Origin: an uncultured Clostridia bacterium
Lineage (GTDB): Bacteria > Bacillota > Clostridia > Oscillospirales > Ruminococcaceae
Direction of reading: 5' to 3'
NCBI GenBank assembly: GCA_947175385.1
Contig: CAMWMN010000014.1
Location: 1 to 32,368 of the forward strand
DNA length: 32,368 nucleotides
This document shows, piece by piece, positions 3,641 to 28,056 of this stretch (position 1 is the stretch's first letter; the number at the start of each line of letters is the position of its first letter). The notes beneath the pieces were generated by a model. It saw nothing but the letters and a program-made list of their open reading frames with translations, did not search any database and was not told the origin of the DNA. The translations under genes and the position numbers were made by a program.

Positions 3641-3767
3641 CTCCTTATTATAATGGCAAATCCGAAACCGCACAGATGAAATCCGCTTTGCGGATTTCAT
3701 CTGTGCTTGCTGAGCGACTCCCAACACCACTTCGTGGTGTTGGACGCCGCTCTCATTTCGGATTTGC
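3641..3767 (-). repeat. Three-way-junction repeat, copy A (upstream of ABC exporter)
   Basis: On the minus strand the outer stem GCAAATCCGAAA pairs perfectly with TTTCGGATTTGC. Inside are two hairpins. Arm 1 has GAGCG/CGCTC at its base and CCAACACCAC-gaa-GTGGTGTTGG at its tip. Arm 2 is a 17-bp stem starting GCACAGATG with an AAA loop. The tail runs CCATTATAATAAGGAG into the start codon, so the element supplies the ribosome binding site. Confidence 0.85.
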
Positions 3768-3910
3768 ACTAATCACCGGTAGGTTGCTTTTGATTATTAC
3801 GCGCCAAAACTTCTCTCCATAAGGCTGCTTTGGGTTATAACGAGCTATAACTGCACCCCGTAAGGTTGTTATGGAATTTTGCGCTGCTAATTGTCAATTC
3901 TACATTATAG

Positions 3911-3939
3911 ATTATAATATATTTTTCCCAATTTGTAAA
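3911..3939 (-). promoter_or_regulatory. Promoter of the ABC exporter operon
   Basis: On the minus strand, TTTACA (3939-3934) and TATAAT (3916-3911) are separated by 17 bp. Predicted transcription starts near 3904, giving a leader of about 270 nt that contains repeat copy A. Confidence 0.7.
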
Positions 3940-3969
3940 GATATTTCTTGACTTTTTTCAAAAAATTAG
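3922..3969. repeat. 48-bp imperfect direct repeat, left copy
   Basis: This starts TTTTTCCCA and contains the invariant block GTAAAGATATTTCTTGAC, then a T-run and an A-run. It matches 4771-4818 closely over its full length. The two copies flank the Xre/zinc-ribbon module. Confidence 0.8.
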
Positions 3970-3998
3970 CGGCAAATCGTTATAAGGCGATTTGCCGC
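3969..3998 (-). terminator. Terminator of the zinc-ribbon gene
   Basis: An 11-bp perfect stem, GCGGCAAATCG with CGATTTGCCGC, encloses an 8-nt loop. Read on the minus strand it is followed by TAATTTTTTG, just after the stop codon at 4006. Confidence 0.75.
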
Positions 3999-4005
3999 AG
4001 ACTAT

Positions 4006-4421
4006 TTATTTTTGAGGGTTGATTTTCGATTTGCCCTTGGCTCTGCCACAGTTCGTACAAAATTCACAGTCCGGGTCGTTGAGTTGTCTGCAATTTCCGC
4101 ATTCCCACGTTTCATCATCGTATTCCATATATGCGGAGGGTTGAGCCGTTCGAACCGAAATCGGTTCGAGAATTTCAGTTCCTCTTTCGGCGATGGTTAC
4201 AATATTGTACGCCATTTCAATTATAAGTCCCCAAATCATATGCGTTGCCAACACAACCAATACTCCACAGCAGTTGTTAGCAAAAACGCTAAAAACCACC
4301 ATGAACCATTCTTTTTCGCGAACACAATCGCCAGAACAATCACGGATATAAAACCAATGACCATACTGATTGTAAGCAATTTGCGATTGTTTTTTAGCCA
4401 AAATTTCTTTGATTTTTTCAT
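4006..4421 (-). pseudogene. Zinc-ribbon membrane protein, apparently frameshifted
   Basis: The frame from ATG 4421 (good SD AGAGGAAA) encodes a Lys-rich start and a hydrophobic membrane segment (KLLTISMVIGFISVIVLAIVF), then stops at 4236. A second frame continues from the same region to 4006 and carries another hydrophobic stretch and a C-terminal zinc ribbon (WECGNC ... CEFCTNC, three CxxC pairs). The second frame has only an improbable TTG start inside the first, so the simplest reading is one protein of about 138 residues broken by a single-base indel near 4240-4290. A sequencing error or programmed shift is possible. Its perfect consensus promoter and terminator argue that the locus was recently functional. 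Function unknown; it is probably controlled by the divergent Xre repressor. Confidence 0.6.
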
Positions 4422-4433
4422 AATTTCCTCTTT

Positions 4434-4454
4434 AATATCCCTATTTGGGATATT
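4434..4454. promoter_or_regulatory. Second inverted repeat in the divergent control region
   Basis: AATATCCC and GGGATATT form a perfect 8-5-8 inverted repeat centred 24 bp from the main operator. It lies at about +1 to +16 of the minus-strand transcript, where a bound repressor would block transcription. Confidence 0.5.
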
Positions 4455-4457
4455 TTT

Positions 4458-4478
4458 ATTATACCATATTGGTATAAT
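4458..4478. promoter_or_regulatory. Palindromic operator holding both divergent -10 boxes
   Basis: ATTATACCA and TGGTATAAT form a perfect 9-3-9 inverted repeat. Its two ends are the TATAAT boxes of the minus-strand and plus-strand promoters. One bound dimer, presumably the adjacent Xre protein, would shut both genes. Confidence 0.65.
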
Positions 4479-4486
4479 TCTGTCAA
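4458..4486 (-). promoter_or_regulatory. Consensus promoter of the zinc-ribbon gene
   Basis: On the minus strand, TTGACA (4486-4481), a 17-bp spacer and TATAAT (4463-4458) give a perfect sigma-A consensus. The -35 box overlaps the ribosome binding site of the divergent Xre gene. Confidence 0.85.
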
Positions 4487-4490
4487 GGGG

Positions 4491-4712
4491 GTGATTAAAA
4501 TAATTTTCAGATTAAAGGAATTGAGAAAGCAGCATCATATATCGCAAGTGCGTCTTGCAATAGACCTCGACACATTTCAGAACACGATAAGCCGTTATGA
4601 AACACTTGAACGGCAGGCAGATTACGAAACATTGATTGCCATTGCGGATTATTTTGGAGTATCGCTTGATTACCTCTTTGGACGCACAGACAATCCCAAA
4701 ATCAACCAATAA
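4491..4712 (+). CDS. Small Xre-family HTH regulator
   Basis: This 73-aa protein is almost entirely one Cro/C1-type helix-turn-helix domain (RLKELRKQHHISQVRLA, then NTISRYETLERQADYETLIAIADYFGVSLDYLFGRTD). It is expected to bind DNA as a dimer and probably represses itself and the divergent zinc-ribbon gene through the operator at 4458-4478. The start is uncertain. GTG at 4491 lies inside the near-perfect SD AAGGGGGTGAT (4485-4495), which is too close to use. In-frame ATA (4500) or ATT (4503) codons sit at normal spacing and would start the protein directly at the helix-turn-helix. Confidence 0.85.
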   Translation: MIKIIFRLKELRKQHHISQVRLAIDLDTFQNTISRYETLERQADYETLIAIADYFGVSLDYLFGRTDNPKINQ

Positions 4713-4770
4713 GTCCGTAAGAGTATAACTTGAGCAGTCGGAGGACAATCTTTGTGCGGTATTGCCTTAA

Positions 4771-4818
4771 TTTTTCCCATTTAGTAAAGATATTTCTTGA
4801 CATTTTTTGAAAAATGAG
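4771..4818. repeat. 48-bp imperfect direct repeat, right copy
   Basis: This matches 3922-3969, including the identical block GTAAAGATATTTCTTGAC. It also contributes the -35 box of the following gene's promoter. Confidence 0.8.
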
Positions 4819-4825
4819 GTAAAAT
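4797..4825 (+). promoter_or_regulatory. Promoter of the esterase-like gene
   Basis: TTGACA (4797-4802), a 17-bp spacer and TAAAAT (4820-4825) lie 65 bp before the ATG at 4890. Confidence 0.8.
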
Positions 4826-4889
4826 ATAAACAAGGCAAAATATTCATTTGATTTCATACGGATTAATCCCGATAGGAGGGCGAATTGAA

Positions 4890-6194
4890 ATGAGGTTTCA
4901 AGTTTCAGCGATGTTTTCGGACAATATGGTACTTCAGCGCGGAAAGAATATTCGCGTGTTCGGCACGGGCGAGGACGGCGTAAAAATTACCGCGCAGCTA
5001 TGCGGATTCACCACCTCCTGCACTGTGGCAAACGGGAAGTGGCGGTTGGTATTCCCGCCGATGGGCGCATGCCGATTCACCAATCTCACGCTTACCGATG
5101 ACGAAACAGACGATGAGATCGTCTTTGAGAGAGTCGCGATTGGCGAGGTGTGGCTGGTTTGCGGCGGCGCGGGAATGGAGCCGCCATTGGAGGACGGCAC
5201 GTCCGAGCCTTCTCCCGAGGAGCCTGCGGACGTGAGATGTTACGCAATACCGCGCCGCACGGTGTTGGACGAGGATTACGAATCTGCGCTTAAAGCGGCA
5301 AAATGGAGCGACTTCAACAACGGCGGATACAACGGCAGCGCCGCCGGATTTTACTTTGCGAAAACAATGTCGGAATATCTGAACATCACGGTGGGGATAA
5401 TCGAGTGCCATTACGGTGAAACTCCCACGCTGAGCTGGCTTAATACGGAGGGCATTGGCGATGTCGCGACTGTTTTGTCGGGGGTCGCTCCGGACGCTCC
5501 GCGCGGCAAGCTCTCGCCGGGCGTGCTTTTCGAGAGCTTGATCAAGCCCGTTTGCCCGTATACGCTGAGCGGTGTATTGTGGTATCACGGCGAGGCGGAC
5601 GGCGAACGCGCGAACGCGCATTTTATGAATCTCGTTCAGGTTATTGACAGATGGCGCGAGGCTTGGGGAAATCACGGGCTGACGTTTATTATCGGGCAGC
5701 TTCCGATGCTTGGCGATAAACCCGATGACGGCGATGAATATCCCCTTATCCGCGAGGCGCAGATGAAGATGTACGATATTTTCAAGAATATGGGGATCTG
5801 CGTGCTGTTGGACTGCGCCGACCGCAAGTACGCCCACGAGGTTGGGCGGCGGTTTGCAATGCAGGCGCTGAACATCATCAACGGCGGCTGTGACGGAGCG
5901 TGCGCGCCGACTCTCAAGGACGCGATCTGGCGCGGCGATACCGTGGAGCTTCAGTTCAATGACGCGCGCGGCGGATTCAAGGTGGAGGGTGATGAGCCGG
6001 GCGGATTCGAGGTCTGCGGAACAGACGGCGTGTATTATCCAGCCATTGCGGACGTTTCGGGCGAGAAAATCTTCCTCACCTGTGAGCAGGTTTCTCAGCC
6101 CGTGGCTGTGAGGTATCTATGGCGGAATAATGCCGAAATCCATATCAAGAGTATGTTCGGACTGCCCATAGTACCGTTCAGAATCACTATGTAA
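4890..6194 (+). CDS. Sialate O-acetylesterase-like protein with altered active site
   Basis: This 434-aa protein has the layout of the SASA/DUF303 sialate O-acetylesterase family, which removes acetyl groups from glycans such as sialic acids. There is an N-terminal beta domain (MFSDNMVLQRGK at 8-19), an SGNH-hydrolase fold (about 85-330) and a C-terminal beta region. Landmarks are VWLVCGGAGMEPPL, WYHGEADGERA, FIIGQLPML and IREAQMKMY. The usual GQSNM nucleophile motif reads GGAGM (92-96), so Ala94 replaces Ser. WYQGESN reads WYHGEAD, and the DxxHP-x-K-x-x-VGRR catalytic His loop is shortened to DRKYAHEVGRR. It may be a non-catalytic binding protein. No signal peptide is seen, so it is probably cytoplasmic. 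ATG 4890 is preferred because AGGAGGG precedes it; an upstream in-frame start at 4848 has no SD. Confidence 0.8.
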   Translation: MRFQVSAMFSDNMVLQRGKNIRVFGTGEDGVKITAQLCGFTTSCTVANGKWRLVFPPMGACRFTNLTLTDDETDDEIVFERVAIGEVWLVCGGAGMEPPLEDGTSEPSPEEPADVRCYAIPRRTVLDEDYESALKAAKWSDFNNGGYNGSAAGFYFAKTMSEYLNITVGIIECHYGETPTLSWLNTEGIGDVATVLSGVAPDAPRGKLSPGVLFESLIKPVCPYTLSGVLWYHGEADGERANAHFMNLVQVIDRWREAWGNHGLTFIIGQLPMLGDKPDDGDEYPLIREAQMKMYDIFKNMGICVLLDCADRKYAHEVGRRFAMQALNIINGGCDGACAPTLKDAIWRGDTVELQFNDARGGFKVEGDEPGGFEVCGTDGVYYPAIADVSGEKIFLTCEQVSQPVAVRYLWRNNAEIHIKSMFGLPIVPFRITM

Positions 6195-6312
6195 TTTACA
6201 GTTGGCGGTTTTAACGTTATAACTACATTAACGCAATCTGCTTTTAAGATAAATAAATCCAAATCAACAATGCGGTGAGCGAGTTTAGTGCGTTATAACT
6301 TACAGCAAGTTA

Positions 6313-6368
6313 TTGGTGATTAGTGCAAACGCGCAGCGTTTGCACGGTTCGCAATTTGCCATTTAGAT
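6313..6368 (+). repeat. Truncated three-way-junction repeat, copy B0
   Basis: The left-end word GGTGATTAGTGCAAA is followed by one hairpin, GTGCAAACGC-gca-GCGTTTGCAC, then the right-end word GCAATTTGCCATTTAGATCA. It looks like an internally deleted copy lying in tandem before copy B. Its tail has lost AGGAG. Confidence 0.65.
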
Positions 6369-6370
6369 CA

Positions 6371-6462
6371 CAAATTCAAAACGCAAGCGTTGCCGAGCAC
6401 CGCGCAGCGGTGAGAGGTAACGCTTAGCGAGTGCTCTTGAATTTGCTATTTTAGATAAGGAG
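6371..6462 (+). repeat. Three-way-junction repeat, copy B (upstream of SDR)
   Basis: The outer stem CAAATTCAAAA pairs with CTTGAATTTG. Arm 1 is AAGCGTT / AACGCTT with tip GCACCGC-gca-GCGGTG. Arm 2 is reduced to a few bases. The tail TATTTTAGATAAGGAG ends in the SD of the next gene. Confidence 0.8.
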
Positions 6463-6468
6463 AAAAGA

Positions 6469-7236
6469 ATGATTGCATTGGTAACGGGCGCAAGCTCGGG
6501 AATCGGTCGTGATATTGCGCGGAGTCTGGCGCGTCACGGCGTGAACGTGATCCTCACGGCGCGCCGCCGCGACAGACTTGCGGAGCTTAAAAACGAGCTT
6601 ATCACGGAATTTGGTGTTAAGGCGATGTATATCACCGCCGATTTGTCGGACGAACGTCAAGTGTTCGCACTTTACAACGCGGTTAAGAAGTACAATATCG
6701 ATATTCTTGTGAACAATGCGGGATTCGGTGTGTTCGGTGAGTTCACCGAAACCGACCTTCGGAAAGAGATGGATATGGTGAATGTCAATATCCGCGCGTT
6801 TCATATTTTGTTCAAGTTATTCCTGAGGGATTTCAAGCGGCGCGACTGCGGATTTATACTCAATACCGCCAGTGCCGCGGGATTTCTGCCCGGACCGTGG
6901 TTTTCGTCCTACTACGCAAGCAAGGCATATGTGGTGAGAATGACGCAGGCCGTTCACGAGGAGCTAAGGAGAAAGCGCAGCAACGTTCACGTTTCGATGC
7001 TCTGCCCCGGACCCGTTGCCACGGAGTTCTCCGAAACCGCGCAAGTACGGTTCATGTCCGTGCCGTACTCCAGTGAGCGACTCGCGGAGCACGCAGTGCG
7101 TGAAATGTTCGGCGGAACATTGCTGATTACCGAAAACAAAATCTCCAAGGCGGGGATCCTGCTCGGAAAACTTCTTCCGGATAGTATTCTCGCGTGGGGA
7201 GCGGGTTGGTTTCAGTCGAAAAGAAAGAGGTCTTAA
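6469..7236 (+). CDS. SDR-family NAD(P)-dependent oxidoreductase
   Basis: This is a 255-aa classical short-chain dehydrogenase/reductase. It has the cofactor motif TGASSGIG (6-13), NNAG (82-85), catalytic Ser135 and the Tyr148-x-x-x-Lys152 pair (YYASK). Basic residues after the second strand (ARRRDR, 31-36) suggest a preference for NADP(H). The C-terminal tail is basic and hydrophobic (GILLGKLLPDSILAWGAGWFQSKRKRS), like SDRs of the DltE/YqjQ type that touch membranes. Substrate unknown. The stop overlaps the ATG of the following thioesterase by one base (TAATG), so the two are coupled and may act on the same acyl substrate. The SD comes from repeat copy B. Confidence 0.92.
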   Translation: MIALVTGASSGIGRDIARSLARHGVNVILTARRRDRLAELKNELITEFGVKAMYITADLSDERQVFALYNAVKKYNIDILVNNAGFGVFGEFTETDLRKEMDMVNVNIRAFHILFKLFLRDFKRRDCGFILNTASAAGFLPGPWFSSYYASKAYVVRMTQAVHEELRRKRSNVHVSMLCPGPVATEFSETAQVRFMSVPYSSERLAEHAVREMFGGTLLITENKISKAGILLGKLLPDSILAWGAGWFQSKRKRS

Positions 7237-7661
7237 TGCCAAACATAACAGAGATAACCGTGCGCTATGCCGAAACGGACTGTATGGGCGTGGTTCATCA
7301 CGCGGTTTATCCCGTGTGGTATGAAATCGCCCGCACGGACTACATCAAAGCCGTGGGAATGTCCTACGCGGAAATGGAGCGCGGCGGGGTAATGCTCCCC
7401 GTGACGGGGATAACGTGCAATTACCGCCGCCCCGCGCATTATGATGATGTTCTTGAAATCACGGTGCGCGTAACGCGGCTGGGTGTCGCGCGTGTTGAGT
7501 TCGCGTATACCGTTACGCGAAAAGGGGAAACCGAAATCCTTGCCACCGGCACAAGCTCTCACGGATTCGTGGACGCTAAAACATTTGCTCCGCTGAATTT
7601 CAAGAAAGCAATGCCCGAGATTTATGCCGTTCTGGAGCAAAAAGCCCGTGAGGACAGTTGA
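7236..7661 (+). CDS. YbgC/FadM-family acyl-CoA thioesterase
   Basis: This 141-aa hot-dog-fold protein opens with the YbgC/4-hydroxybenzoyl-CoA thioesterase signature RYAETDCMGVVHHAVYPVWYE. Asp15 is the expected catalytic residue. Enzymes of this family hydrolyse acyl-CoA or acyl-ACP thioesters as homotetramers in the cytoplasm. I use ATG 7236, which overlaps the SDR stop and has AGAGG upstream, rather than the upstream in-frame ATG at 7194, which lies inside the SDR gene and would add 14 residues not typical of the family. The acyl substrate cannot be read from the sequence. Confidence 0.92.
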   Translation: MPNITEITVRYAETDCMGVVHHAVYPVWYEIARTDYIKAVGMSYAEMERGGVMLPVTGITCNYRRPAHYDDVLEITVRVTRLGVARVEFAYTVTRKGETEILATGTSSHGFVDAKTFAPLNFKKAMPEIYAVLEQKAREDS

Positions 7662-7752
7662 TAGTTAGCTGCGCCGCAAGGTATAACCATAATCTTCTCT
7701 TCCGAGAGAAGTTGCGGAGTGCAATAGCTTAATGCAGCTTAACGAGAGTAAT

Positions 7753-7870
7753 GCAAATTCAAAACGCAAGCTGCGCGCAACACCACAAAGTGGTGTTGCG
7801 GGTCGCTTAGCGAACGCAGACGAGCATAAGCTCGTCTGCGTGGTTTTGAATTTGCCATTTAGATAGGGAG
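7753..7870 (+). repeat. Three-way-junction repeat, copy C (upstream of flavodoxin-like gene)
   Basis: The outer stem GCAAATTCAAAAC pairs with GTTTTGAATTTGC. Arm 1 is AAGC / GCTT with tip CGCAACACCAC-aaa-GTGGTGTTGCG. Arm 2 is ACGCAGACGAGC-ataa-GCTCGTCTGCGT. The tail CATTTAGATAGGGAG supplies the SD. Confidence 0.85.
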
Positions 7871-7876
7871 TTTACT

Positions 7877-8419
7877 ATGGCTAAAAAGATTTTGATTATT
7901 GAAACCAGTCTGCGTGCCAACAGCAACTCAGACGCGCTTGCCGAAGCATTTGCGAAAGGCGCGCAGTCCTCGGGGAACGAGGTTGAGATTGTATCGCTGA
8001 AAGGAAAAAACATCGCGTTCTGCAAGGGCTGTCTGGCGTGTCAAAAGCTGAGGAGGTGCGTTATTGAGGACGATTCCGCGGAAATATCGCGCAAGATGCT
8101 GAATGCCGATGTCATTGTCTGGGCGACACCGATTTACTACTACGAGATGTGTGGTCAGATGAAAACTCTTATCGACCGTGCGAACTGGCTGTACAATGCG
8201 AATTACGCGTTCCGTGACGTGTATCTGCTAAGCACCGCCGCCGAGGACGCCGATTATGTTGACGCCGGCGCGGTTAAGGGTGTTCAGGGTTGGATCGACT
8301 GCTTCGAGAAAGCGCGTTTTGCGGGGAAAGTATTCGCGGGCGGAGTAAATGATGGCGGCGATATTGCGAATCACAAGGCTTTGAGCGAATCATTTGAGCT
8401 TGGAAAATTGATTGAATAA
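7877..8419 (+). CDS. Flavodoxin-like NAD(P)H-dependent FMN oxidoreductase
   Basis: This 180-aa protein has the flavodoxin-like fold of the NADPH-dependent FMN reductase / iron-sulfur flavoprotein group. It shows an N-terminal strand and phosphate loop (ILIIETSLRANSNSDALA), a FCKGCLACQKLRRC segment with Cys49, 52, 55 and 61, and the FMN-binding ATPIYYYEMCGQMKTLIDR signature (83-101). The Cys pattern is the compact type found in clostridial flavoproteins, but whether it holds a metal or cluster is unknown. It probably transfers electrons from NAD(P)H to a quinone, iron or drug substrate. It lies just upstream of the iron uptake operon, separated from it by a strong promoter. Confidence 0.88.
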   Translation: MAKKILIIETSLRANSNSDALAEAFAKGAQSSGNEVEIVSLKGKNIAFCKGCLACQKLRRCVIEDDSAEISRKMLNADVIVWATPIYYYEMCGQMKTLIDRANWLYNANYAFRDVYLLSTAAEDADYVDAGAVKGVQGWIDCFEKARFAGKVFAGGVNDGGDIANHKALSESFELGKLIE

Positions 8420-8508
8420 TTTTGTTTTGGGAAATATTCACAATCGTTCGAGCGGATTTTTGTGCAAAGTAAACGAAAGTGGATATTTTCCTGTGAATTT
8501 TACAAAAA

Positions 8509-8534
8509 CCCCCTTGACTTTTTTGTCAAGGGGG
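8509..8534. repeat. Perfect inverted repeat containing the feo -35 box
   Basis: CCCCCTTGAC and GTCAAGGGGG flank TTTTTT. The left arm contains TTGAC of the -35 box. On the minus strand the stem is followed by TTTTTG and would resemble a terminator; on the plus strand there is no T-run after it. Confidence 0.75.
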
Positions 8535-8542
8535 AGTAAAAT
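8514..8542 (+). promoter_or_regulatory. Promoter of the feo operon
   Basis: TTGACT (8514-8519), a 17-bp spacer and TAAAAT (8537-8542). Transcription would start near 8549, at the edge of the first operator. Confidence 0.8.
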
Positions 8543-8550
8543 ATAACTGT

Positions 8551-8568
8551 GGTTAGCTAATGCTAACC
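8551..8568. promoter_or_regulatory. feo operator 1 (GTTAG/CTAAC palindrome)
   Basis: GGTTAGCTAATGCTAACC is a perfect 7-4-7 inverted repeat at about +2 to +20. The GGTTAG half-site resembles those of DtxR/IdeR/MntR metalloregulators, although the spacing differs from the classic DtxR box. Confidence 0.7.
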
Positions 8569-8584
8569 TATATATTTGAAATTC

Positions 8585-8604
8585 GGGTTAGGTATACATA
8601 ACCC
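8585..8604. promoter_or_regulatory. feo operator 2
   Basis: GGGTTAGGTATACATAACCC is an inverted repeat with one mismatched pair. Its centre is exactly 35 bp from that of operator 1. Confidence 0.6.
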
Positions 8605-8621
8605 ATACATTCAACACGGAG

Positions 8622-8637
8622 GTTAGTGACAACTAAC
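8622..8637. promoter_or_regulatory. feo operator 3
   Basis: GTTAGTGACAACTAAC is a perfect 6-4-6 inverted repeat. Its centre is exactly 35 bp from that of operator 2. Confidence 0.6.
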
Positions 8638-8661
8638 AGTGTTCGGTTTGGGGGGTAGATT

Positions 8662-8874
8662 ATGATGCCGTTGGTATTGGCGCGGACAGGCGAAAAAGTC
8701 ACGATAGGCAAGGTTGGCGGAAGCGGCGAAGTGAAGCGATTTCTGGAGAGCTTGGGATTTGTGGTCGGCGCGGAGGTGACAATCGTGTCCGAGATGAGCG
8801 GAAATTTCATTGTCAAGGTCAAGGACAGCCGCGTGGCGGTTTCCAAGGAGATGGCACGAAGAATTATGGTGTAG
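8662..8874 (+). CDS. feoA: FeoA domain protein (first copy)
   Basis: This 70-aa protein is a single FeoA/SH3-like domain (GEKVTIGKVGGSGEVKRFLESLGFVVGAEVTIV ... VSKEMARRIMV). FeoA is a small cytoplasmic partner of the ferrous iron permease FeoB and is thought to modulate its activity. It is the first gene of the operon, behind the iron-type operators and an SD GGGGGGTAG. A second ATG directly follows the first (8665) and either could be used. Confidence 0.93.
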   Translation: MMPLVLARTGEKVTIGKVGGSGEVKRFLESLGFVVGAEVTIVSEMSGNFIVKVKDSRVAVSKEMARRIMV

Positions 8875-8902
8875 CCATTCACCGCGCTATATGGGATAAA
8901 GC

Positions 8903-9012
8903 GCAAATCCGAAATGCAAGCGTTGCTGAACACCGCATAGCGGTGTGAGGTGACGCTTAGCAAGTGCGCGCGGAGCGCGCACGGTTTCGGATTTGCCATT
9001 AAAATCAGGAGG
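8903..9012 (+). repeat. Three-way-junction repeat, copy D (upstream of feoA2)
   Basis: The outer stem GCAAATCCGAAA pairs with TTTCGGATTTGC. Arm 1 is AAGCGTT / GACGCTT with tip ACACCGC-ata-GCGGTGT. Arm 2 is GTGCGCGC / GCGCGCAC. The tail CCATTAAAATCAGGAGG supplies the SD. Confidence 0.87.
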
Positions 9013-9016
9013 GTTT

Positions 9017-9235
9017 ATGAACACATTACGAGATGCAAAAATCGGGCAGACAGTCACGGTAAAGCGGCTGAACGGCTCGGGCGCGATAAAGCGCAGAATT
9101 ATGGATATGGGCATTACAAAGGGCGCGGAGGTATATGTAAGAAAAGTCGCGCCGTTGGGCGACCCGATTGAGGTCACGGTGCGAGGATATGAACTTTCGC
9201 TCCGCAAGGCGGACGCGGAAATGATAGAGGTTTAG
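9017..9235 (+). CDS. feoA: FeoA domain protein (second copy)
   Basis: This is a 72-aa FeoA domain (MNTLRDAKIGQTVTVKRLNGSGAIKRRIMDMGITKGAEVYVRKVAPLGDPIEVTVRGYELSLRKADAEMIEV). It resembles the canonical FeoA pattern (MDMGIxxGxEV, APxGDPxEVxVRGYELSLR) more closely than the first copy does. I start it at ATG 9017, behind AGGAGG, rather than the earlier in-frame start at 8993, which lies in the repeat element. Two feoA genes before feoB are common in Firmicutes; the copies may have different partner roles. Confidence 0.95.
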   Translation: MNTLRDAKIGQTVTVKRLNGSGAIKRRIMDMGITKGAEVYVRKVAPLGDPIEVTVRGYELSLRKADAEMIEV

Positions 9236-9269
9236 TTGTTTAATCCTCAACAACGTATCGGGGTGAAGT

Positions 9270-9378
9270 GCAAATCCGAAATACAAGCGTTGCCGAACAC
9301 CGCGCAGCGGTGTGAGATAACGCTTAGCAAGTGCGCGCGGAGCGCGAACGTTTTCGGATTTGCTATTAAGATAAGGAG
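9270..9378 (+). repeat. Three-way-junction repeat, copy E (upstream of feoB)
   Basis: This is nearly the same as copy D: outer stem GCAAATCCGAAA / TTTCGGATTTGC, arm 1 tip ACACCGC-gca-GCGGTGT, arm 2 TGCGCGC / GCGCGA, and tail TATTAAGATAAGGAG providing the SD. Confidence 0.87.
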
Positions 9379-9383
9379 TTAAT

Positions 9384-11783: not shown

Positions 11784-11956
11784 ACCTCATAACGAATTAC
11801 GGCGGTTCGATTATTGTGGGATCGATCGTGTTGGCGATTGTCGCGCTAATCATCGTAAAGGGTGTCCGCGATAAGCGCGCGGGGAAGCACTCTTGCTCGT
11901 GCGGCGGCGACTGCGCGTCATGCGGGTGCTGCAAGTCGAAAAATCCACAAAAATAA
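11777..11956 (+). CDS. FeoB-associated Cys-rich membrane protein
   Basis: This is a 59-aa protein starting at TTG 11777 with AGGTG five bases upstream, overlapping the end of feoB by 7 bp. A single hydrophobic helix (SIIVGSIVLAIVALIIV, residues 11-27) is followed by a basic stretch and a Cys cluster (CSCGGDCASCGCC, seven residues apart from the start). This architecture, directly after feoB, matches the Firmicutes FeoB-associated Cys-rich membrane protein family, which may help FeoB handle iron; its mechanism is not known. The same frame would be missed by length-filtered gene calls. Confidence 0.88.
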   Translation: MLDLITNYGGSIIVGSIVLAIVALIIVKGVRDKRAGKHSCSCGGDCASCGCCKSKNPQK

Positions 11957-11984
11957 GAAAGTCACCACACTTATATAAAAGTTG

Positions 11985-12011
11985 ACCGCTCCTTCGGGGG
12001 CGGTTTTTTAT
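11985..12011 (+). terminator. Intrinsic terminator of the feo operon
   Basis: The stem ACCGCTCC / GGGGCGGT closes on a TTCG tetraloop and is followed by TTTTTT. It lies 28 bp after the Cys-rich gene. Confidence 0.9.
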
Positions 12012-12035
12012 TTTCCAATTTTTTTGAAAAACCCC

Positions 12036-12064
12036 TTGACAAAATCGTGCGTATATGATATAAT
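12036..12064 (+). promoter_or_regulatory. Consensus promoter of the GntR-ABC operon
   Basis: TTGACA (12036-12041), a 17-bp spacer and TATAAT (12059-12064) give a perfect sigma-A promoter. The sequence just after it, GTACTAGTTAAAACAGT, is a plausible binding site for the encoded GntR protein, but no clean palindrome is seen. Confidence 0.85.
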
Positions 12065-12115
12065 AATTGTACTAGTTAAAACAGTCACGATGGTGCAAAT
12101 ATGGAGGTGGTTTTT

Positions 12116-14938: not shown

Positions 14939-14959
14939 CAATTATGCATTATAAATTAA

Positions 14960-14987
14960 AAATCCCCCTCCGCACGGAGGGGGATTT
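14960..14987. terminator. Terminator hairpin after the ABC-2 operon
   Basis: AAATCCCCCTCC pairs with GGAGGGGGATTT around GCAC. The stem is strong and usable from both directions, although the T-run is short. It lies 22 bp after the permease stop. Confidence 0.75.
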
Positions 14988-18150: not shown

Positions 18151-18173
18151 TTCGGTGAAACCGCATATTTAAT

Positions 18174-18214: not shown

Positions 18215-18230
18215 TATATAAGGAGTTGCT

Positions 18231-19520: not shown

Positions 19521-19529
19521 TTCACGATT

Positions 19530-19901
19530 ATGGCTGTTGCAAAAAAGCACCGCCGCAAAATCGTCTGCGCCGGGAAAAATTACGTCTGGTACGTCCTCGC
19601 GGGCGACCGCGACTATTGGGAGCGCATTTCAAGCAACGATTGGGAAACGCCGTTTCTGCATATTGCTTCTGAGGATAAGGCACTGATTCTGACGATTCCG
19701 CTGAACGCGCCGACTCCGTATGCCGTAAGCAAGGGCAGAATCTTCCAAAGCAAGCCGACAAGCGGCTGCTGGGAGCGGTATCCTCTGCCGTTCGCGATTC
19801 CCGAAATCGTAACCCCGAAAACAGTCACGGAAATTATTGCGTGGGCGGTTGACGGAGAAAACGCGGTCAAGACCGAATACAGCGCGGAGTTTCGCGTTTG
19901 A
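19530..19901 (+). CDS. Hypothetical 123-aa protein
   Basis: The protein begins with a basic stretch (MAVAKKHRRKIVCAGKNYVWYVL), then an acidic and aromatic segment (DYWERISSNDWETPFLHIASEDKALILTIPL) and a proline-rich tail. No known domain is recognised. It has SD AAGGAG and lies just after the decarboxylase-like gene. Its 3' end overlaps the convergent PH-domain gene by 35 bp. Confidence 0.7.
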   Translation: MAVAKKHRRKIVCAGKNYVWYVLAGDRDYWERISSNDWETPFLHIASEDKALILTIPLNAPTPYAVSKGRIFQSKPTSGCWERYPLPFAIPEIVTPKTVTEIIAWAVDGENAVKTEYSAEFRV

Positions 19902-21078: not shown

Positions 21079-21103
21079 AAATATATCTCCGGAGGTAACT
21101 TAT

Positions 21104-22468: not shown

Positions 22469-22486
22469 CACTTTATGAAAGGAGAT

Positions 22487-22595
22487 GCAAATTGAGAAAG
22501 ACAGCGAAATTGCCGCAGCGCAGCGGAGGCAATTTCGCTCGGCTAACGCGAACGGAGCGAAGCGGAGAGTGATTCTCGATTTGCCATTTTAGATA
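22487..22595 (+). repeat. Three-way-junction repeat, copy F (upstream of pncA)
   Basis: The outer stem GCAAATTGAGAA pairs with TTCTCGATTTGC through a G-T wobble. Arm 1 is GCGAAATTGCC / GGCAATTTCGC, and a second short GC-rich arm contains CGGAGCGAAGCG. The tail CATTTTAGATA runs straight into ATG 22596 and has lost the AGGAG. The nearest SD (AAAGGAG, 22478-22484) lies just before the element instead. Confidence 0.8.
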
Positions 22596-23114
22596 ATGAA
22601 AGCATTAATCATAGTTGATTACCAAAACGATTTTGTCAACGGAGCATTGGGATTTTCGGGCGCGGAACTGCTTGAGCCGATTATCCTTGAGAAGATTTCC
22701 GAGTGCCGCAAGAATGGCGGACAGGTGATTTTCACGCTGGATACTCACGGCGAGGATTATCTCTCCACCGCCGAGGGCAGAAAACTCCCGGTAAAGCACT
22801 GCGTTGACGGCACGGACGGTCACGCGCTGTACGGAAAAATTGCCAAGTGCGTTACTCCGAATGATATTGTGATTAAAAAGCCGTCATTCGGGTCGTTGGA
22901 GTTGGCGGAGATTCTCAAACGCGGGAATTACGACGAAGTGGAATTATGCGGACTGGTTACGGACATCTGCGTGGTTTCCAATGCGGTAATCGCCAAAGCC
23001 GCCCTGCCCGAAAGCCGAATCGTTGTTGACAGTACGGCTTGTGCGTCATTCGACAGCGAAAAGCACAAGGCAGCACTTGAAGTAATGAAAAGCGTACAGG
23101 TTGATGTGGTATGA
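22596..23114 (+). CDS. pncA: Nicotinamidase/isochorismatase-family hydrolase
   Basis: This 172-aa protein of the isochorismatase fold is a likely nicotinamidase, converting nicotinamide to nicotinate in NAD salvage. Catalytic residues are visible as Asp8 (VDYQNDF), Lys95 (KKPSFGS) and Cys125 (LVTDICVVS). The metal and substrate region is TLDTHGEDYLSTAEGRKLPVKHC (Asp49, His51, His68). Its role is supported by pncB three genes on. The start has no adjacent SD because a repeat element lies between AAAGGAG and the ATG. The stop overlaps the next ATG by 4 bp. Confidence 0.92.
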   Translation: MKALIIVDYQNDFVNGALGFSGAELLEPIILEKISECRKNGGQVIFTLDTHGEDYLSTAEGRKLPVKHCVDGTDGHALYGKIAKCVTPNDIVIKKPSFGSLELAEILKRGNYDEVELCGLVTDICVVSNAVIAKAALPESRIVVDSTACASFDSEKHKAALEVMKSVQVDVV

Positions 23115-23647
23115 TCAAAGGGACGTTTAAGGTCTGGGAATTTATTGTTCTGATGGCGGCGGGGCTGATACTATTCGGCGGATTTATACTGAACACCGCT
23201 ATGGGAATCGGTTCTCCCGAGATTGTCATTTTCGCGGCATTTTTGACTATGACGGCTACGCTGTTTGTCCGTCCCGTTTGGCTGCTTGTGAACAGAGGAC
23301 GCATAGAGAATTGGGAACACGTCACCGCAACGATTGTGAACAAGCAATTCTCGAAGGTAAGACACCGTAACACCACCTATTACCGAGTGACGCTTATGCT
23401 GTGTTTTAAGGACGAAATGGGCAAGGAATACAACGAATCTTTCACCGCGCCCGCGTTTATGCGCAGAGTGGATAAAGGCGTTGAATACGAAATCGCGTTT
23501 GACCCGAAACACCCGGACAGGTTTATCGCGCTGAAGCCCGCGCATGAGCAAGCTGTCCTGATGACGATTCTTGGGATCATATTGGAGATGGCAATGATAG
23601 CGTTATCGATTTTCGCTTATATTATGGATAAATCGGGAGTGAAATAA
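23111..23647 (+). CDS. DUF3592-like membrane protein, copy 1
   Basis: This is a 178-aa protein with two hydrophobic N-terminal segments (FIVLMAAGLILFGGFIL and EIVIFAAFLTMTATLFV), a soluble beta-rich core (WEHVTATIVNKQFSKVRHRNTTYYRVTLMLCFKDEMGKEYNESF) ending in EIAFDPKHPDRFIAL, and a C-terminal helix. The core pattern resembles DUF3592-type domains, but that assignment is from memory of the pattern. It is a clear tandem duplicate of the next gene, sitting between pncA and pncB. Function unknown. Confidence 0.85.
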   Translation: MIKGTFKVWEFIVLMAAGLILFGGFILNTAMGIGSPEIVIFAAFLTMTATLFVRPVWLLVNRGRIENWEHVTATIVNKQFSKVRHRNTTYYRVTLMLCFKDEMGKEYNESFTAPAFMRRVDKGVEYEIAFDPKHPDRFIALKPAHEQAVLMTILGIILEMAMIALSIFAYIMDKSGVK

Positions 23648-24166
23648 ATGATTAAGGGAACGTTCAATATCTGGGAATTTGTCGTTTTGGTTGCGGCGTC
23701 GGTGATACTGTTCGGCGGGTTTGCGCTGAATAATACGGGAATCGTTCCTCCCGAAATTGCTGTTTTCGCGGGATTCCTAACTATGGCGGCTGTACTGCTT
23801 GTCCGCCCCGTGTGGCTTTTGGTGAACAGCCGCCGCATAAGGAATTGGGAGCACGTCAGCGCGAAGGTCGCAAACAAGCAATTCTCTGAGGTGAAATACC
23901 ACCATACCACCAAATACCGCGTAACACTTACGCTATGCTTTAAGGACGAAATGGGCAAGGAGTATAACGAATCCTTCACCGCGCCCGCGTTTATGCGTCA
24001 AGCAGCCGAGGGCGATGAATACGAAATCGCGTTTGACCCGAAACACCCGGACAGGCTTATCGCGTTGGATCCCGCACGCAAACAAGCTGTTCTGATGACG
24101 ATTTTCGGGATTATATTGGAGATGGCAATTATAGCGTTATGGATAATGGAGGTTCATTATGAATAA
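23648..24166 (+). CDS. DUF3592-like membrane protein, copy 2
   Basis: This 172-aa protein is about three-quarters identical to the preceding one by visual alignment. The block FKDEMGKEYNESFTAPAFMR and the segment YEIAFDPKHPDR are fully conserved. The N-terminal half keeps both membrane segments. The first copy ends in YIMDKSGVK, while this one ends in LWIMEVHYE. The stop overlaps the pncB start by 8 bp (ATGAATAA), the same junction type as the ABC exporter pair. Confidence 0.85.
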   Translation: MIKGTFNIWEFVVLVAASVILFGGFALNNTGIVPPEIAVFAGFLTMAAVLLVRPVWLLVNSRRIRNWEHVSAKVANKQFSEVKYHHTTKYRVTLTLCFKDEMGKEYNESFTAPAFMRQAAEGDEYEIAFDPKHPDRLIALDPARKQAVLMTIFGIILEMAIIALWIMEVHYE

Positions 24167-25613
24167 CGAACAGAATCTGACGATGCTGTGCGATTTTTAT
24201 CAGCTTACAATGGGCAACGGCTACTTCAAAACACGTCACGCAAGCCGAATCGCTTATTTTGATGTGTTCTTCCGTCGAGTGCCCGATGGCGGCGGATTCG
24301 CTGTGTTCGCGGGTCTGGAGCAGATTATCGACTACATTGAAAATCTGCGTTTCAGTGAAGAGGATATCGAATTTCTGCGCGGCAAGGGAATCTTCTCGGA
24401 GGATTTTCTGGAGTATCTGAAAACATTCCGATTCGAGGGGGATATTTTCGCCGTTCCCGAGGGAATGCCCGTGTTCCCGAATGAGCCGCTGATAACGGTT
24501 CGCGCACCGTCAATCCAAGCTCAGCTTGTGGAAACAATGCTGTTGCTTCTGGTGAATCATCAGTCGTTGATTGCCACTAAGGCAAGCCGAATCGTAAGAG
24601 CGGCGCAAGGACGGGCAATTTCGGAATTTGGCTCACGGAGGGCGCAGGGCGCGTCGGGCGCGATTCTCGGAGCGAGAGCCGCGTATATCGGCGGCTGCTC
24701 GGGTACAGCGTGCGTGCTGACGGACGAGCAGTACGGAGTTCCCGCAACGGGGACAATGGCGCATAGTTGGGTGCAGATGTTCGATTCGGAGCTGGAGGCA
24801 TTCGAGGAATACTGCCGCGTTTATCCGCACGGAGCGGTTCTGTTGGTGGATACCTACAACGTGCTGAAAAGCGGTGTTCCGAACGCGATTAAAGCGTTTG
24901 ACAATATCTTAAAGCCGTTGGGCGCGCGTCCCGTTGGAATCCGTCTGGATTCGGGGGATATTGCGTATCTGTCGATTGAGGCGCGGAAATTGCTTGACGC
25001 GGCGGGGTATCCCGATTGCAAAATCATCGCGTCAAATTCTTTGGACGAGCACATCATCGCGGATTTGATTACCCAAGGCGCGAAAATAGATTCGTTCGGA
25101 GTCGGTGAGCGGCTGATTACCGCAAGCTCCGAGCCGGTGTTCGGGGGAGTTTACAAGCTCGCCGCCGTTGAGGAAAACGGTGTTATTACTCCGAAAATCA
25201 AAATCTCCGAAAACGTGGTAAAGATTACCAATCCGCATTACAAAAAGGTTTACCGAATCTTTGACAACAAGACGGGCAAGACGCTGGCAGATTTGATTTG
25301 CGTTCACGATGAGCAGATTTCCGATATGCTGAACGCGGACGGCTCGTTGGAGCTGTTCGACCCCGATTTCACATGGAAGCGCAAACGTGTGACGGATTTC
25401 ACCGCAAAGGAACTGCAAGTCCCCGTATTTCTGAACGGAAAATGCGTTTACCAATCGCCGCCAATTGATGAGATAAAGCGGTTCTGCGCAGAGCAGCAAG
25501 AAACGCTGTGGGATTCGATTAAACGGTTTGAGAATCCGCACACCTATCACGTGGATTTGTCCAAGCGGCTGTGGGAAATCAAGCAAAAGCTGCTTTCCGA
25601 TAGGAGGGATTGA
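24159..25613 (+). CDS. pncB: Nicotinate phosphoribosyltransferase
   Basis: This 484-aa enzyme converts nicotinate, ATP and PRPP to nicotinate mononucleotide, the second step of NAD salvage after PncA. Family landmarks include LTMLCDFYQLTMGNGYF at the start, AYFDVFFRRVPDGGGFAVFAGLE, EFGSRRAQG, YIGGCSGTACV, GTMAHSWVQ and GIRLDSGDIAYLS. ATG 24159 has GGAGG upstream. It is the fourth gene of the operon beginning with pncA. Confidence 0.96.
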   Translation: MNNEQNLTMLCDFYQLTMGNGYFKTRHASRIAYFDVFFRRVPDGGGFAVFAGLEQIIDYIENLRFSEEDIEFLRGKGIFSEDFLEYLKTFRFEGDIFAVPEGMPVFPNEPLITVRAPSIQAQLVETMLLLLVNHQSLIATKASRIVRAAQGRAISEFGSRRAQGASGAILGARAAYIGGCSGTACVLTDEQYGVPATGTMAHSWVQMFDSELEAFEEYCRVYPHGAVLLVDTYNVLKSGVPNAIKAFDNILKPLGARPVGIRLDSGDIAYLSIEARKLLDAAGYPDCKIIASNSLDEHIIADLITQGAKIDSFGVGERLITASSEPVFGGVYKLAAVEENGVITPKIKISENVVKITNPHYKKVYRIFDNKTGKTLADLICVHDEQISDMLNADGSLELFDPDFTWKRKRVTDFTAKELQVPVFLNGKCVYQSPPIDEIKRFCAEQQETLWDSIKRFENPHTYHVDLSKRLWEIKQKLLSDRRD

Positions 25614-25615
25614 CG

Positions 25616-26932
25616 GTGGACGCGAACATCATCGAACGATGCAAGGCGGTTTGTCCCGCGTTTCACGAGGACACCGCGTGCGCGTTCGCCGAGGGGAACA
25701 TCATAGCGACTTTGGATACTTCTCAGACGCAGGACGGCTCTCGCGGAATCGCGTTCTATGAGGACGGAATTTCGGTTAATTTCGATGGTGAAACGCGGTG
25801 GATCCGATATGACGGAATCAAGTCCGCGCAGATAATCAGCAGCTTTGAGGACTCTTTTGCGGACGAGCTGTTGCTTTCGGGCGAGGGCTTTGAGGTGAGA
25901 GTTTCGGATTATTCTCTGGACAAGTCCGAGCTTAAATCGTTGCTCTCAGAGCTTACGGAATCATCGAAGGCTCCCGTGGAATCCGCACCCGAAATTCCCG
26001 CAGAGGTTGTCGAGGCGAAAAAACGTCAGACCGAGGAATACGCGGAAATAATCGCGCAAAAGCTGGCGGAAAGCGCGTTGGTAAATCACGGGATCAGCGA
26101 AACATATTCCGATGATATTGTGTTTGAGGACGGCGAACCCGTGATTTCGGAGATTGAAATTCCGCACGAAAAAGCGCTGCCCGAGGGGTACGATCCCGCG
26201 CCGATTCCCGATGAGGGGATAAACTGGCTTTCCGAAAAACCCGCGAAAAATCCGCCCGAAGAAGATTCCGAGGAAAGCGAATCCGAAGCACGCGAGAAAA
26301 TCCAGAATATGTCGCGCGAGGAAACATTGTCCTATCTGGCGCAGTCATTAAGCGAAATCAACGATATGGATTTCGGCGATTCCGATGACGATGTTGATGC
26401 TATCGAGGAGATTCCCGAAAGTACTGTAACCCTCGAGGAAACCAAGCACATCTCGGAGTTTATAAATTCTGCTCCGATAAGCGAAACGCTCTCCGAAAGC
26501 AAGCCCTCAACAGATTCCGTGGGGCTTACTATTGAGCCGATATGGGGCGATATATACATAAAGGCAAGCCGAAATCTGCGCGAGGTAATTGAAAGCGGAA
26601 AGCTGACAATGGAGCAGATTGAAAAAGAGCTTAAGGACAAGCTGTTGGATTCAACGCGGGCGTTCGCCGAGATAACCGCAGACGAGTCGAAGATTCCGAA
26701 GTCGCTTGTAGCGCGGATTCACGAGCTGAAAACCGCCGCAGACGATTTCGAGCAGTATTTCAAGTCGGGTGAGGATATTGCGGTACGCGCGATGTTCTTT
26801 ATGATGTATCAGATGCTCTCGTATTCGGACAGAATCGCCGAAACTCCCGAAACAAAAGCGCGGCTGAATGATTTCTTCCGCCGTTTCGGACCTGCGGGGA
26901 TTACGCTTTCAATGCTGGATATGCGGGTGTGA
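25616..26932 (+). CDS. Hypothetical 438-aa acidic protein
   Basis: GTG 25616 is preferred, being eight bases after AGGAGG and two bases after the pncB stop; an in-frame TTG at 25610 is too close to the SD. Residues 1-115 form a compact domain (MDANIIERCKAVCPAFHEDTACAFAEGNII ... WIRYDGIKSAQIISSFEDSF). Residues 120-305 are very rich in Glu, Ser and Pro and look disordered. The C-terminal 130 residues are helical (REVIESGKLTMEQIEKELKDKL ... YQMLSYSDRIAE). No family is recognised. Its place at the end of the NAD salvage operon is the only functional hint. Confidence 0.75.
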   Translation: MDANIIERCKAVCPAFHEDTACAFAEGNIIATLDTSQTQDGSRGIAFYEDGISVNFDGETRWIRYDGIKSAQIISSFEDSFADELLLSGEGFEVRVSDYSLDKSELKSLLSELTESSKAPVESAPEIPAEVVEAKKRQTEEYAEIIAQKLAESALVNHGISETYSDDIVFEDGEPVISEIEIPHEKALPEGYDPAPIPDEGINWLSEKPAKNPPEEDSEESESEAREKIQNMSREETLSYLAQSLSEINDMDFGDSDDDVDAIEEIPESTVTLEETKHISEFINSAPISETLSESKPSTDSVGLTIEPIWGDIYIKASRNLREVIESGKLTMEQIEKELKDKLLDSTRAFAEITADESKIPKSLVARIHELKTAADDFEQYFKSGEDIAVRAMFFMMYQMLSYSDRIAETPETKARLNDFFRRFGPAGITLSMLDMRV

Positions 26933-26978
26933 TTCAACTCCCGGTTGAAAAGCCGCACCCAATTGTTAAAACAGGTTA

Positions 26979-27007
26979 TTGCTTTACAGAACGGTTGGTG
27001 GTACAAT
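26979..27007 (+). promoter_or_regulatory. Promoter of the Xre-methyltransferase gene
   Basis: TTGCTT (26979-26984), a 17-bp spacer and TACAAT (27002-27007) lie about 15 bp before the start codon, so the mRNA is nearly leaderless at the 5' side of its SD. Confidence 0.65.
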
Positions 27008-27021
27008 AGGGTTGAAAGGAA

Positions 27022-27855
27022 GTGGTTATTATCAACACTATCGGTAAAAATATCCAAACGCTCCGAAAGCAAAACGGTCTTACACAAGAGGAGCTTGCCG
27101 GAAGGATCGGCGTGACATATCAGGCGGTCAGCAAGTGGGAAAACGGAACGACCGCGCCCGATATTTCGCTGCTGCCCGAGCTGGCGGCGGTGTTCGGTAC
27201 AAACATTGACGCGCTGTTGGGATATGCGGCGGAGAAAAAGACCTCCGCTTACTACGAGGAACGCTACAAGGATACGGAGTACTATTGGGGCGTAAAACCA
27301 TCGTTTATGTGCCTTGAAGTGCTGAGAATACTCCCGCCCGACAGACCTCTCAGAATATTGGACGTCGGCTGCGGCGAGGGCAAGGACGCTGTTTTCTTCT
27401 CAAAAAACGGCTACAAGGTAAGTGCGTTCGACATCACGGGTTCGGGCATTGAAAAGGCGAAACGGCTAGCGGAGCGGCACGGCGTGGATATTGACTTCTT
27501 TCGCGCGGATATTATCGACTATCGACTAGAAAAAGAGTTCGATGTTATCTTTTGTTCCGGAGTGCTGCATTATTTGCCGGAGGAGGTTCGCGGCGAGGTG
27601 CTTGACGATTGGAAACGGCATACGGCAACGGGCGGTGTGAACGCGCTGAACGTGTTTGTCCAAAAACCATTCATTCAAAATCCGCCCGACCAAGAACCGG
27701 GGCATTTCCCAACCTGGCATTCGGGTGAGCTTTTCGGGTATTTTCACGATTGGAGATTCGAGCGCTGCGAGGAGGTAATCTTTGACTGTAACAGCGGTGG
27801 TGCTCCTCACAAGCATTGTATGGATACGCTGATTGCCGTTAAGGAAACGGTTTAA
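27022..27855 (+). CDS. Fusion of Xre HTH regulator and SAM methyltransferase
   Basis: This is a 277-aa protein. Residues 5-68 form a Cro/C1 helix-turn-helix (IQTLRKQNGLTQEELAGRIGVTYQAVSKWENGTTAPDISLLPELAAVFGTNIDALLG). Residues about 85-270 form a class I SAM-dependent methyltransferase, with the SAM motif ILDVGCGEGKDAVFF, acidic strand-2 end (VSAFDITGSGIEKAK) and a VIFCSGVLHYLPEE segment, resembling TehB/UbiE-type enzymes. A DNA-binding domain joined to a small-molecule methyltransferase suggests ligand-sensing regulation or self-coupled expression. The start is uncertain: GTG 27022 lies one base after AAAGGA, while an in-frame ATT at 27028 is at normal spacing. Confidence 0.85.
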   Translation: MVIINTIGKNIQTLRKQNGLTQEELAGRIGVTYQAVSKWENGTTAPDISLLPELAAVFGTNIDALLGYAAEKKTSAYYEERYKDTEYYWGVKPSFMCLEVLRILPPDRPLRILDVGCGEGKDAVFFSKNGYKVSAFDITGSGIEKAKRLAERHGVDIDFFRADIIDYRLEKEFDVIFCSGVLHYLPEEVRGEVLDDWKRHTATGGVNALNVFVQKPFIQNPPDQEPGHFPTWHSGELFGYFHDWRFERCEEVIFDCNSGGAPHKHCMDTLIAVKETV

Positions 27856-27884
27856 TAACCCGAAACAACACTTTGGTGACTAAT

Positions 27885-27934
27885 GCAAATCCAAAAAAAG
27901 TCTCAAAATTCGCGCCAGCGAATTTTGGATTTGC
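27885..27934 (+). repeat. Truncated three-way-junction repeat, copy G0
   Basis: GCAAATCCAAAA and TTTTGGATTTGC flank one hairpin, AAAATTCGC-gcca-GCGAATTTT. The tail CCATCAAGATCATC has lost AGGAG. It lies in tandem before copy G and is preceded by GGTGACTAATGCAAAT, the left-flank word also seen at copies A and B0. Confidence 0.7.
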
Positions 27935-27946
27935 CATCAAGATCAT

Positions 27947-28056
27947 CAAATTCAAAACGCGAGCGGCACGGAATACCGCATAGCGGTGTTCCATGCCGCT
28001 CAGGCGAGTGTGCGCGCAGCGCGCACAGTTTTGAATTTGCTATTTAGAATAAGGAG
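27947..28056 (+). repeat. Three-way-junction repeat, copy G (upstream of guaA)
   Basis: The outer stem CAAATTCAAAAC pairs with GTTTTGAATTTG. Arm 1 is GAGCGGCA / TGCCGCTC with tip AATACCGC-ata-GCGGTGTT. Arm 2 is TGTGCGCG-cag-CGCGCACA. The tail TATTTAGAATAAGGAG supplies the SD of guaA. Confidence 0.87.

Follow-up and report, generated by a model that had tools for sequence, protein, structure and literature searches.

The REP/BIME repeats are palindromic extragenic sequences with hairpins and are linked to RAYT (Y1) transposases. The BOX elements of Streptococcus pneumoniae are small, interspersed and modular, with extensive predicted RNA structure; they are thought to be non-autonomous mobile parasites and likely affect co-transcribed genes (PMC3049150). 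Correia elements and ERIC, named in PMC3049150 as well, are also small and can alter expression when transcribed. Among synthetic devices, the insulator RiboJ has a hairpin just upstream of the ribosome-binding site, which is suggested to expose the site and stabilise the mRNA (PMC6206723). Here we describe a family of folded repeats that lie against the Shine-Dalgarno sequence (SD) of many genes in an uncultured Clostridia bacterium (Ruminococcaceae). The family was noticed in a 32,368-nt stretch of its DNA (contig CAMWMN010000014.1 of assembly GCA_947175385.1, positions 1 to 32,368), hereafter the window. It is probably a genus-restricted structured repeat, similar to miniature inverted-repeat transposable elements (MITEs), that would live as an mRNA leader, with its fold kept and its contents exchanged by recombination.

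The likeness to BOX elements, as the relevant passages of PMC3049150 describe them, lies in small size, modularity and structure, but the copies described here abut SDs in one orientation and their contents turn over at fixed slots. Those passages mention no fixed SD coupling for Correia elements or ERIC; from these, as from BOX, the present family is set apart by description and not by sequence. The REP/BIME repeats have similar hairpins, whereas here a three-way junction abuts the SD and neither of the two richest genomes has the Y1 transposase domain PF01797. Among titles and abstract openings searched for repeats coupled to an SD or a start codon, nothing matched.

The window is contig C14 of a metagenome-assembled genome (MAG; G000) of 2.47 Mb in 171 contigs, 97% complete. 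The closest named relative found is the MAG Oscillospiraceae bacterium Mgla_MAG_34-bin_10 (JAAVIC01), represented by G021 and G024, which give identical matches at identical coordinates (G024 is 99% complete). Over most of the window G021 is syntenic, with a nucleotide identity of 85.5-92.5%. As both genomes are MAGs, misassembly of repeats is possible; this caveat is tempered by the best likeness between cores, typically ~82%, and by the location of the window slots within long syntenic stretches.

A unit often begins with one or more ~42-nt GTTATAAC units, occurring singly or several times before the fold, followed by a ~100-nt three-way junction (the core) and an AT-rich tail, YATTWARAT. 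The GTTATAAC-like motif falls in the -40..-31 bin in 42/125 and 42/110 copies, with more peaks ~42 and ~84 nt upstream. The three-way junction consists of an outer stem, hairpin A and hairpin B; the length of the outer stem was refined to 12 bp, of the GCAAATYCRAAA type. As in a MITE, the outer stem forms a terminal inverted repeat, with an own-arm match of 11.42 of 12 against 9.61 when shuffled (112 copies); over its five variable columns the match is 4.62 against 2.92 with arms shuffled. Conserved columns are mostly within the outer stem and the junction. A covariance-model search, suggested by an initial annotation of the window, was run with a model of the core alone, tail excluded (R1). 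It found at least 148 copies in G000 (148 of 150 scored candidates) and at least 150 in G021 (150 of 150). The tail pattern TTTGCYATTTAGATAAGGAG, allowing up to three mismatches, occurs at 101 places in G000 against one for the reversed control, and chance is therefore excluded.

The initial annotation had also claimed that the fold is kept through two-sided changes, and this holds. In an alignment of 28 full cores (7 short or atypical of the 35 extracted were omitted), over a four-helix structure, 95.2% of cells are paired against 77.8 in shuffles. Of 48 pairs, 38 are changed on both sides (23.9 in shuffles), and there are 244 double-change cells (70.4 in shuffles), with slid controls far lower. 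Much of this apparent covariation seems to come from whole-hairpin exchange rather than stepwise compensatory mutation.

Slots are kept while their contents are replaced. For this comparison 125 distinct G000 cores were used, read in partial sequence. The orthologous gene start was located in G021 for 102 of them, and in 76 cases G021 likewise has a core in that slot. The flanks of these shared slots are 93.3% identical, and yet interior identity reaches 0.9 in only 6 slots, lies at 0.75-0.9 in 8 and falls below 0.75 in 62. The mean interior identity is 0.629, compared with 0.595 for shuffled partners (standard deviation of the mean 0.007). The 62 replaced interiors average 0.575, against 0.580 for non-orthologous pairs below 0.75; of the 5700 non-orthologous pairs, 6.7% reach 0.75 and 0.16% reach 0.9. 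The outer-stem version is identical in 25/76 slots, where shuffling gives 17.4 (standard deviation 2.9). A first pass over 30 pairs gave an agreeing picture.

Turnover extends to the SD and no further. At the 62 slots with replaced interiors, tail identity hardly exceeds the shuffled level (0.77 vs 0.72), whereas the stretch from SD to ATG is clearly orthologous (0.86 vs 0.65). Upstream, the 200 nt before replaced slots are near the shuffled level (0.52-0.64 vs 0.47-0.57). Among window genes the 20-60 nt upstream could be compared for eight element-free genes, of which six keep 0.80-0.95 and two are at 0.47 and 0.51 (a ninth is without a match), and for six element-bearing genes, of which five are at 0.49-0.63 and guaA at 0.80.

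Hairpins reassort as modules. A partner at 0.95 or above exists for hairpin B in 35/109 copies and for hairpin A in 19/109, but for the whole interior in 0/109. Pairs with a common hairpin B have a hairpin A identity of 0.67 against a background of 0.62, and they share the outer-stem version at 0.65 against 0.19. Nine pairs of partly kept orthologues at 0.82 or above were inspected. In L082/L171 hairpin A alone is swapped in an otherwise kept copy, and the loops of L026/L169 and L091/L157 are inverted between orthologues (GAA/TTC and AAA/TTT).

The initial annotation had described the element as carrying the ribosome-binding site. This was overturned by comparing filled and empty orthologous sites, judged by eye: empty sites already have the SD, and the element joins just 5' of it. 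Since the same SD is present at filled and empty sites, the element abuts the SD and does not carry it; the SD-to-ATG stretch, tracking the host gene, contradicts carriage as well, and the idea of the SD as part of the element was rejected. Empty sites occur in both directions, which is the presence/absence polymorphism of a MITE. Of 14 G021-filled sites without the tail signature in G000, seven are usable empties, the others being tandem copies, variants or poor mappings. Of 16 G000 sites without the tail signature in G021, five are element-free (L083, L078, L090, L102 and the window site at 22486) and seven turned out to be first members of tandems; L069 is truncated, and L008, L095 and L092 contain a folded element of a different class. 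In L038/L078 the SD is shared, with TTTAGAT|AAGGAGTTACTATG in G021 and CCCGA|AAGGAGTTACTATG in G000. The same SD stands on both sides in L034/L081 (AATAAGGAGGA), L051:541/L026 (insertion before AAAAAGGGGTGAG), L083/L045 (AAGGAGCTAT) and L090/L162 (AAAGGAGAA). L030/L025, L057/L094, L037/L099 and L078/L170 have an SD on both sides with a diverged spacer. At L056:6243/L079 and window 22486 the element lies directly before the ATG, with no intervening SD. No target duplication is visible by eye in the clean pairs L038/L078 and L051/L026. Short direct repeats surround the insert at L090 (vs L162; TAAAGGAG) and at window 22486 (ATGAAAG); they may be target duplications or chance. A second folded class (AATCCAAAAAG...hairpins...TTTTGGATTT, then a TTAAAATAAGGAG-type tail) was seen in the same pre-SD slots at L058, L163, L174 and L016:1691-1793.

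The position relative to genes was examined in 70 copies, 7 from the window and 63 from L069-L108, picked from the R1 list with small contigs left out; open reading frames (ORFs) were defined by length, without a gene finder. Stretches picked by their tail were excluded, which, if anything, works against coupling. An SD followed by the start codon of an ORF 18-27 nt past the core was found in 56/70 copies, against a reverse-side control with some ORF in 31/70 and an SD in 0/70. The remaining 14, read by eye, comprise eight first copies of tandems, four at starts without a good SD (one being 22486), one with an SD but a short ORF, and L087:321, which fits no category. In a wider set, read in the same way, SD and start are present in 90/109 copies. 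An AGGAG-like motif starts 10-11 nt past the core in 90 of the 102 motif-bearing copies (125 examined). The upstream gene is co-directional at 82 of 125 copies and divergent at 29; seven copies are too near an end, in four the gene is far and three have no ORF. With its sense orientation and its right end usually flush to a host SD in G000 and its close relative, the element should therefore be in the mRNA 5' leader or between the genes of an operon.

The downstream genes had been described as sharing no function, and those tested bear this out. Thirty proteins were scanned, 28 of 55 listed plus two more window genes. Matches above curated cut-offs include feoB, FeoA, guaA, dnaG, dnaX, recJ, murE, purA, purD, transketolase, isochorismatase, a short-chain dehydrogenase and others; at the cut-offs applied, nothing matched the proteins at L083, L088, L085, L093:2947, L078, L092 and L072. 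The genes dnaG, dnaX and murE are essential in model bacteria.

Some but not all genomes of the genus contain the family, and SD coupling is confined to a portion of it. R1 matches occur in 14/43 genomes of the genus, including two rich ones. A deeper search of six other genomes of the genus gave 7 to 53 copies each, with 31 to 53 in G006, G032 and G036. Of 31 copies sampled from these six, SD and start directly follow the core in 4/5 of G022, 3/4 of G046 and 2/5 of G035; in the other three genomes, G032, G006 and G036, almost every sampled copy is a member of a subfamily ending in GAAATTTC. Among 247 family genomes from 126 genera, only G000 matches, with 16 candidates scored per genome. The strict tail gave no match in 20 relatives, 12 of the same genus. 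A strict-tail scan of genome_contigs (one genome per species, 84,980 species; records near G000 may be missing) gave 33 loci in JAAVIC01 and single, chance-like matches in three unrelated organisms. The tail pattern TTTGCYATTWARATAAGGAG had no exact match in viral_contigs, and a viral origin was rejected.

Strand asymmetries bear on whether the fold acts as DNA or RNA. Triloops make up 391/476 predicted hairpin loops, with GNA the commonest, and GNA or AAA outnumber their complements 141/19 in G000 and 117/22 in G021 (258 vs 41 in total). In hairpin A, G.T exceeds A.C mismatches 32/12 and 28/0, counted without an RNA folding rule; counts on the model alignments (213/67 and 128/25) may lean toward wobbles by construction. 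Because copies share ancestry, the p-values of these tests overstate. The counts favour the sense strand as the one on which the fold is mainly kept; the bias is strong in the loops and hairpin A and elsewhere not significant. DNA hairpins, too, would accommodate the triloop type and the loop inversions.

Possibly, though we doubt it, the family is purely selfish MITE-like DNA whose recombinase or transposase needs a DNA hairpin and has a preference for SD-like DNA, which reads CTCCTT on the opposite strand, the leader role being incidental. The fixed orientation, the junction beside a purine-rich SD and the two clean pairs free of visible target duplication would fit, as would the loop inversions between orthologues. 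The mostly GNA triloops are of the loop type of d(GCGNAGC), a stable DNA mini-hairpin. Free hopping among all SDs, however, would not be expected to keep the slots (76 of 102 located) but lose their contents, and both the loops and the wobbles of hairpin A lean to the sense strand. Y1_Tnp (PF01797), the one transposase family that the search covered, has no match in G000 or G024; within the genus it is found in 2/14 element-bearing against 7/29 other genomes. Mobilisation by an IS200/IS605-like Y1 or RAYT enzyme is thus unsupported, the domain being missing from both richest genomes. A reverse transcriptase, though a conceivable source, is not supported either: RVT_1 is found in 8/14 element-bearing and 9/29 other genus genomes (Fisher p 0.18), with a weak match in G000 (E 7e-7) and none in G006, G032 and G036 despite their 31 to 53 copies.

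Ordinary fast switching of intergenic regions between strains, a form of horizontal regulatory transfer that is a known phenomenon (PMC5890482), is an unlikely account in which the repeat would be a passenger. As that work describes them, switched regions resemble the slots here in keeping the gene and replacing what lies upstream, and the replaced stretch does extend at least 200 nt upstream. But here a family member replaces a family member, sometimes hairpin by hairpin within an otherwise kept copy, and in the small window sample most element-free genes (6/8) keep their upstream sequence while most element-bearing genes (5/6) do not. Very improbable is a ligand- or temperature-sensing class of cis-regulatory RNA governing a regulon. 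The presumed leader position and the conserved junction architecture would suit such a class, but the downstream genes are unrelated and the Rfam 15 covariance models gave no match in the window up to E 1. No conserved binding core is evident, because loops and arms are replaced wholesale between orthologues; the conserved unpaired core beside the fold that marks such RNAs was not found, interiors being replaced.

Recombination between copies is preferred over free transposition because slots persist, contents are replaced, swaps are modular and the border stands at the SD. Recombination would bring in new contents, from elsewhere in the genome or from another strain, and its right border would be held at the SD; the AAGGAG common to the slots is the simplest candidate for holding it there. 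A stable, self-contained fold beside the SD may be tolerated or helpful, insulating or protecting the 5' side of the transcript whatever its exact sequence. By comparison with synthetic leader hairpins, the element as RNA would be a leader module that depends on its fold more than on its sequence. RiboJ, as presented in the relevant part of PMC6206723, is alike in position; here no ribozyme has been shown, and insulation would be a role by analogy.

Several observations weigh against this preferred reading of a leader repeat with recombining contents. Close donors within the genome are scarce: a match at 0.95 or above exists for 0/109 copies in G000 and 7/93 in G021, and the nearest own match has a median of 0.83-0.84. 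Because they are so rare, simple copying between slots of one genome is insufficient and was rejected as the sole source of contents, which points to a wider pool or constant mixing of modules. In L077/L152 the exchange was one-sided, replacing the left arm and hairpin A and so breaking the outer stem. At L102/L156 the element-free side has a tail-like AATTAAAATAAGGAG and another GC-rich repeat upstream, so a tail by itself does not always signal an element. The fixed coupling to start codons put forward initially is near-fixed in G000 but not universal: in three further species of the genus, SD and start directly follow the core in only 0/5 (G032), 1/6 (G006) and 1/6 (G036) of the sampled copies. 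For G.T over A.C mismatches, neither the outer stem (27/19 and 23/14) nor hairpin B (12/7 and 9/5) shows a significant excess. The predicted exposure of the SD is 0.576 with native and 0.552 with shuffled cores (61/99 higher, p 0.08), and that of the wider region 0.561 against 0.545 (p 0.006), making the case that the fold frees the SD weak.

In the window R1 recovers all seven full-size copies that had been proposed, six of them also among the listed genome-wide matches, and every copy points to its downstream gene, as had been claimed. An SD lies between tail and start codon in six of the seven. On the minus strand, the core at 3656..3768 (R1 E 1.1e-18) precedes an ABC transporter gene (1902-3635, minus), with its tail CATTATAAT and the SD AAGGAG (3641-3646) at 3641..3655 and the start codon at 3633-3635. 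All other copies are on the plus strand. A 5' unit, GCGTTATAACTTACAGCAAGTTATTGGTGATTAG, at 6290..6323 precedes a tandem pair whose first member is a shortened copy (6324..6368), its tail continuing into the next core at 6369..6446 (E 5.4e-9). The tail TATTTTAGAT and SD AAGGAG follow at 6447..6462, before a short-chain dehydrogenase gene (6469, Pfam). The core at 7752..7855 (E 8.9e-20), with tail CATTTAGAT and SD AGGGAG at 7856..7870, stands before an FMN reductase-type gene (7877, Pfam). Those at 8902..8996 (E 1.5e-16; tail CATTAAAAT and SD CAGGAG at 8997..9011) and 9269..9363 (E 3.4e-14; tail TATTAAGAT and SD AAGGAG at 9364..9378) precede feoA (9017) and feoB (9384). The second shortened copy, 27884..27944, likewise runs directly into a full one, the core at 27945..28040 (E 7.9e-15), with tail TATTTAGAAT and SD AAGGAG at 28041..28056 before guaA (28063); both shortened copies had been predicted. 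The exception among the full copies is the core at 22486..22584 before an isochorismatase gene (22596), matched in the window search (E 2e-7) but not among the listed genome-wide matches. An SD-like AAGGAG lies 5' of this core (22479-22484), the stretch from core to ATG is without an SD, and the orthologous G021 site is element-free.

Other features were noted in passing. The interval 8662-9232 holds two small genes before feoB, the second being FeoA with an element and the first FeoA-like by eye and without one. A 300-nt direct repeat of 79% identity (23200-23499 and 23734-24033) overlaps adjacent ORFs of 178 and 172 aa and is probably a tandem gene duplication. A 49-nt AT-rich direct repeat (3921-3969 and 4770-4818; 88%), AAAGATATTTCTTGAC-like, perhaps represents the promoters of two neighbouring units. 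Alike terminator-like hairpins, AAATCCCCCTC..GAGGGGGATTT (80-83%), lie at 124-154 and 14958-14987. A GC-rich CCCCCGCCCCCGAAGGG-like repeat is intergenic in G021 (L056, L156) and occurs once at a G000 element site; window 1-110 is similar by eye. G021:C1:101438-103774 holds ~2.3 kb where window 11994-12004 has ~10 bases.

Small interspersed repeats are usually viewed as tolerated intergenic parasites; here one family has a fixed address at the SDs of genes as central as dnaG, dnaX, murE and guaA. Since its sequence changes but gene, SD and fold persist, selection on the fold is separated from selection on the sequence, and the replaced leaders are natural replicates of leader swaps on one gene. 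This raises the question of how the exchange comes to have one of its borders fixed at the ribosome-binding site. Tentatively, the family may amount to a natural leader-cassette system, in which more than 100 genes, dnaG, dnaX and murE included, carry interchangeable structured leaders whose modules are reshuffled by SD-anchored recombination. If so, the lineage could re-draw many of its 5' leaders with the genes and their SDs unchanged and the fold preserved.

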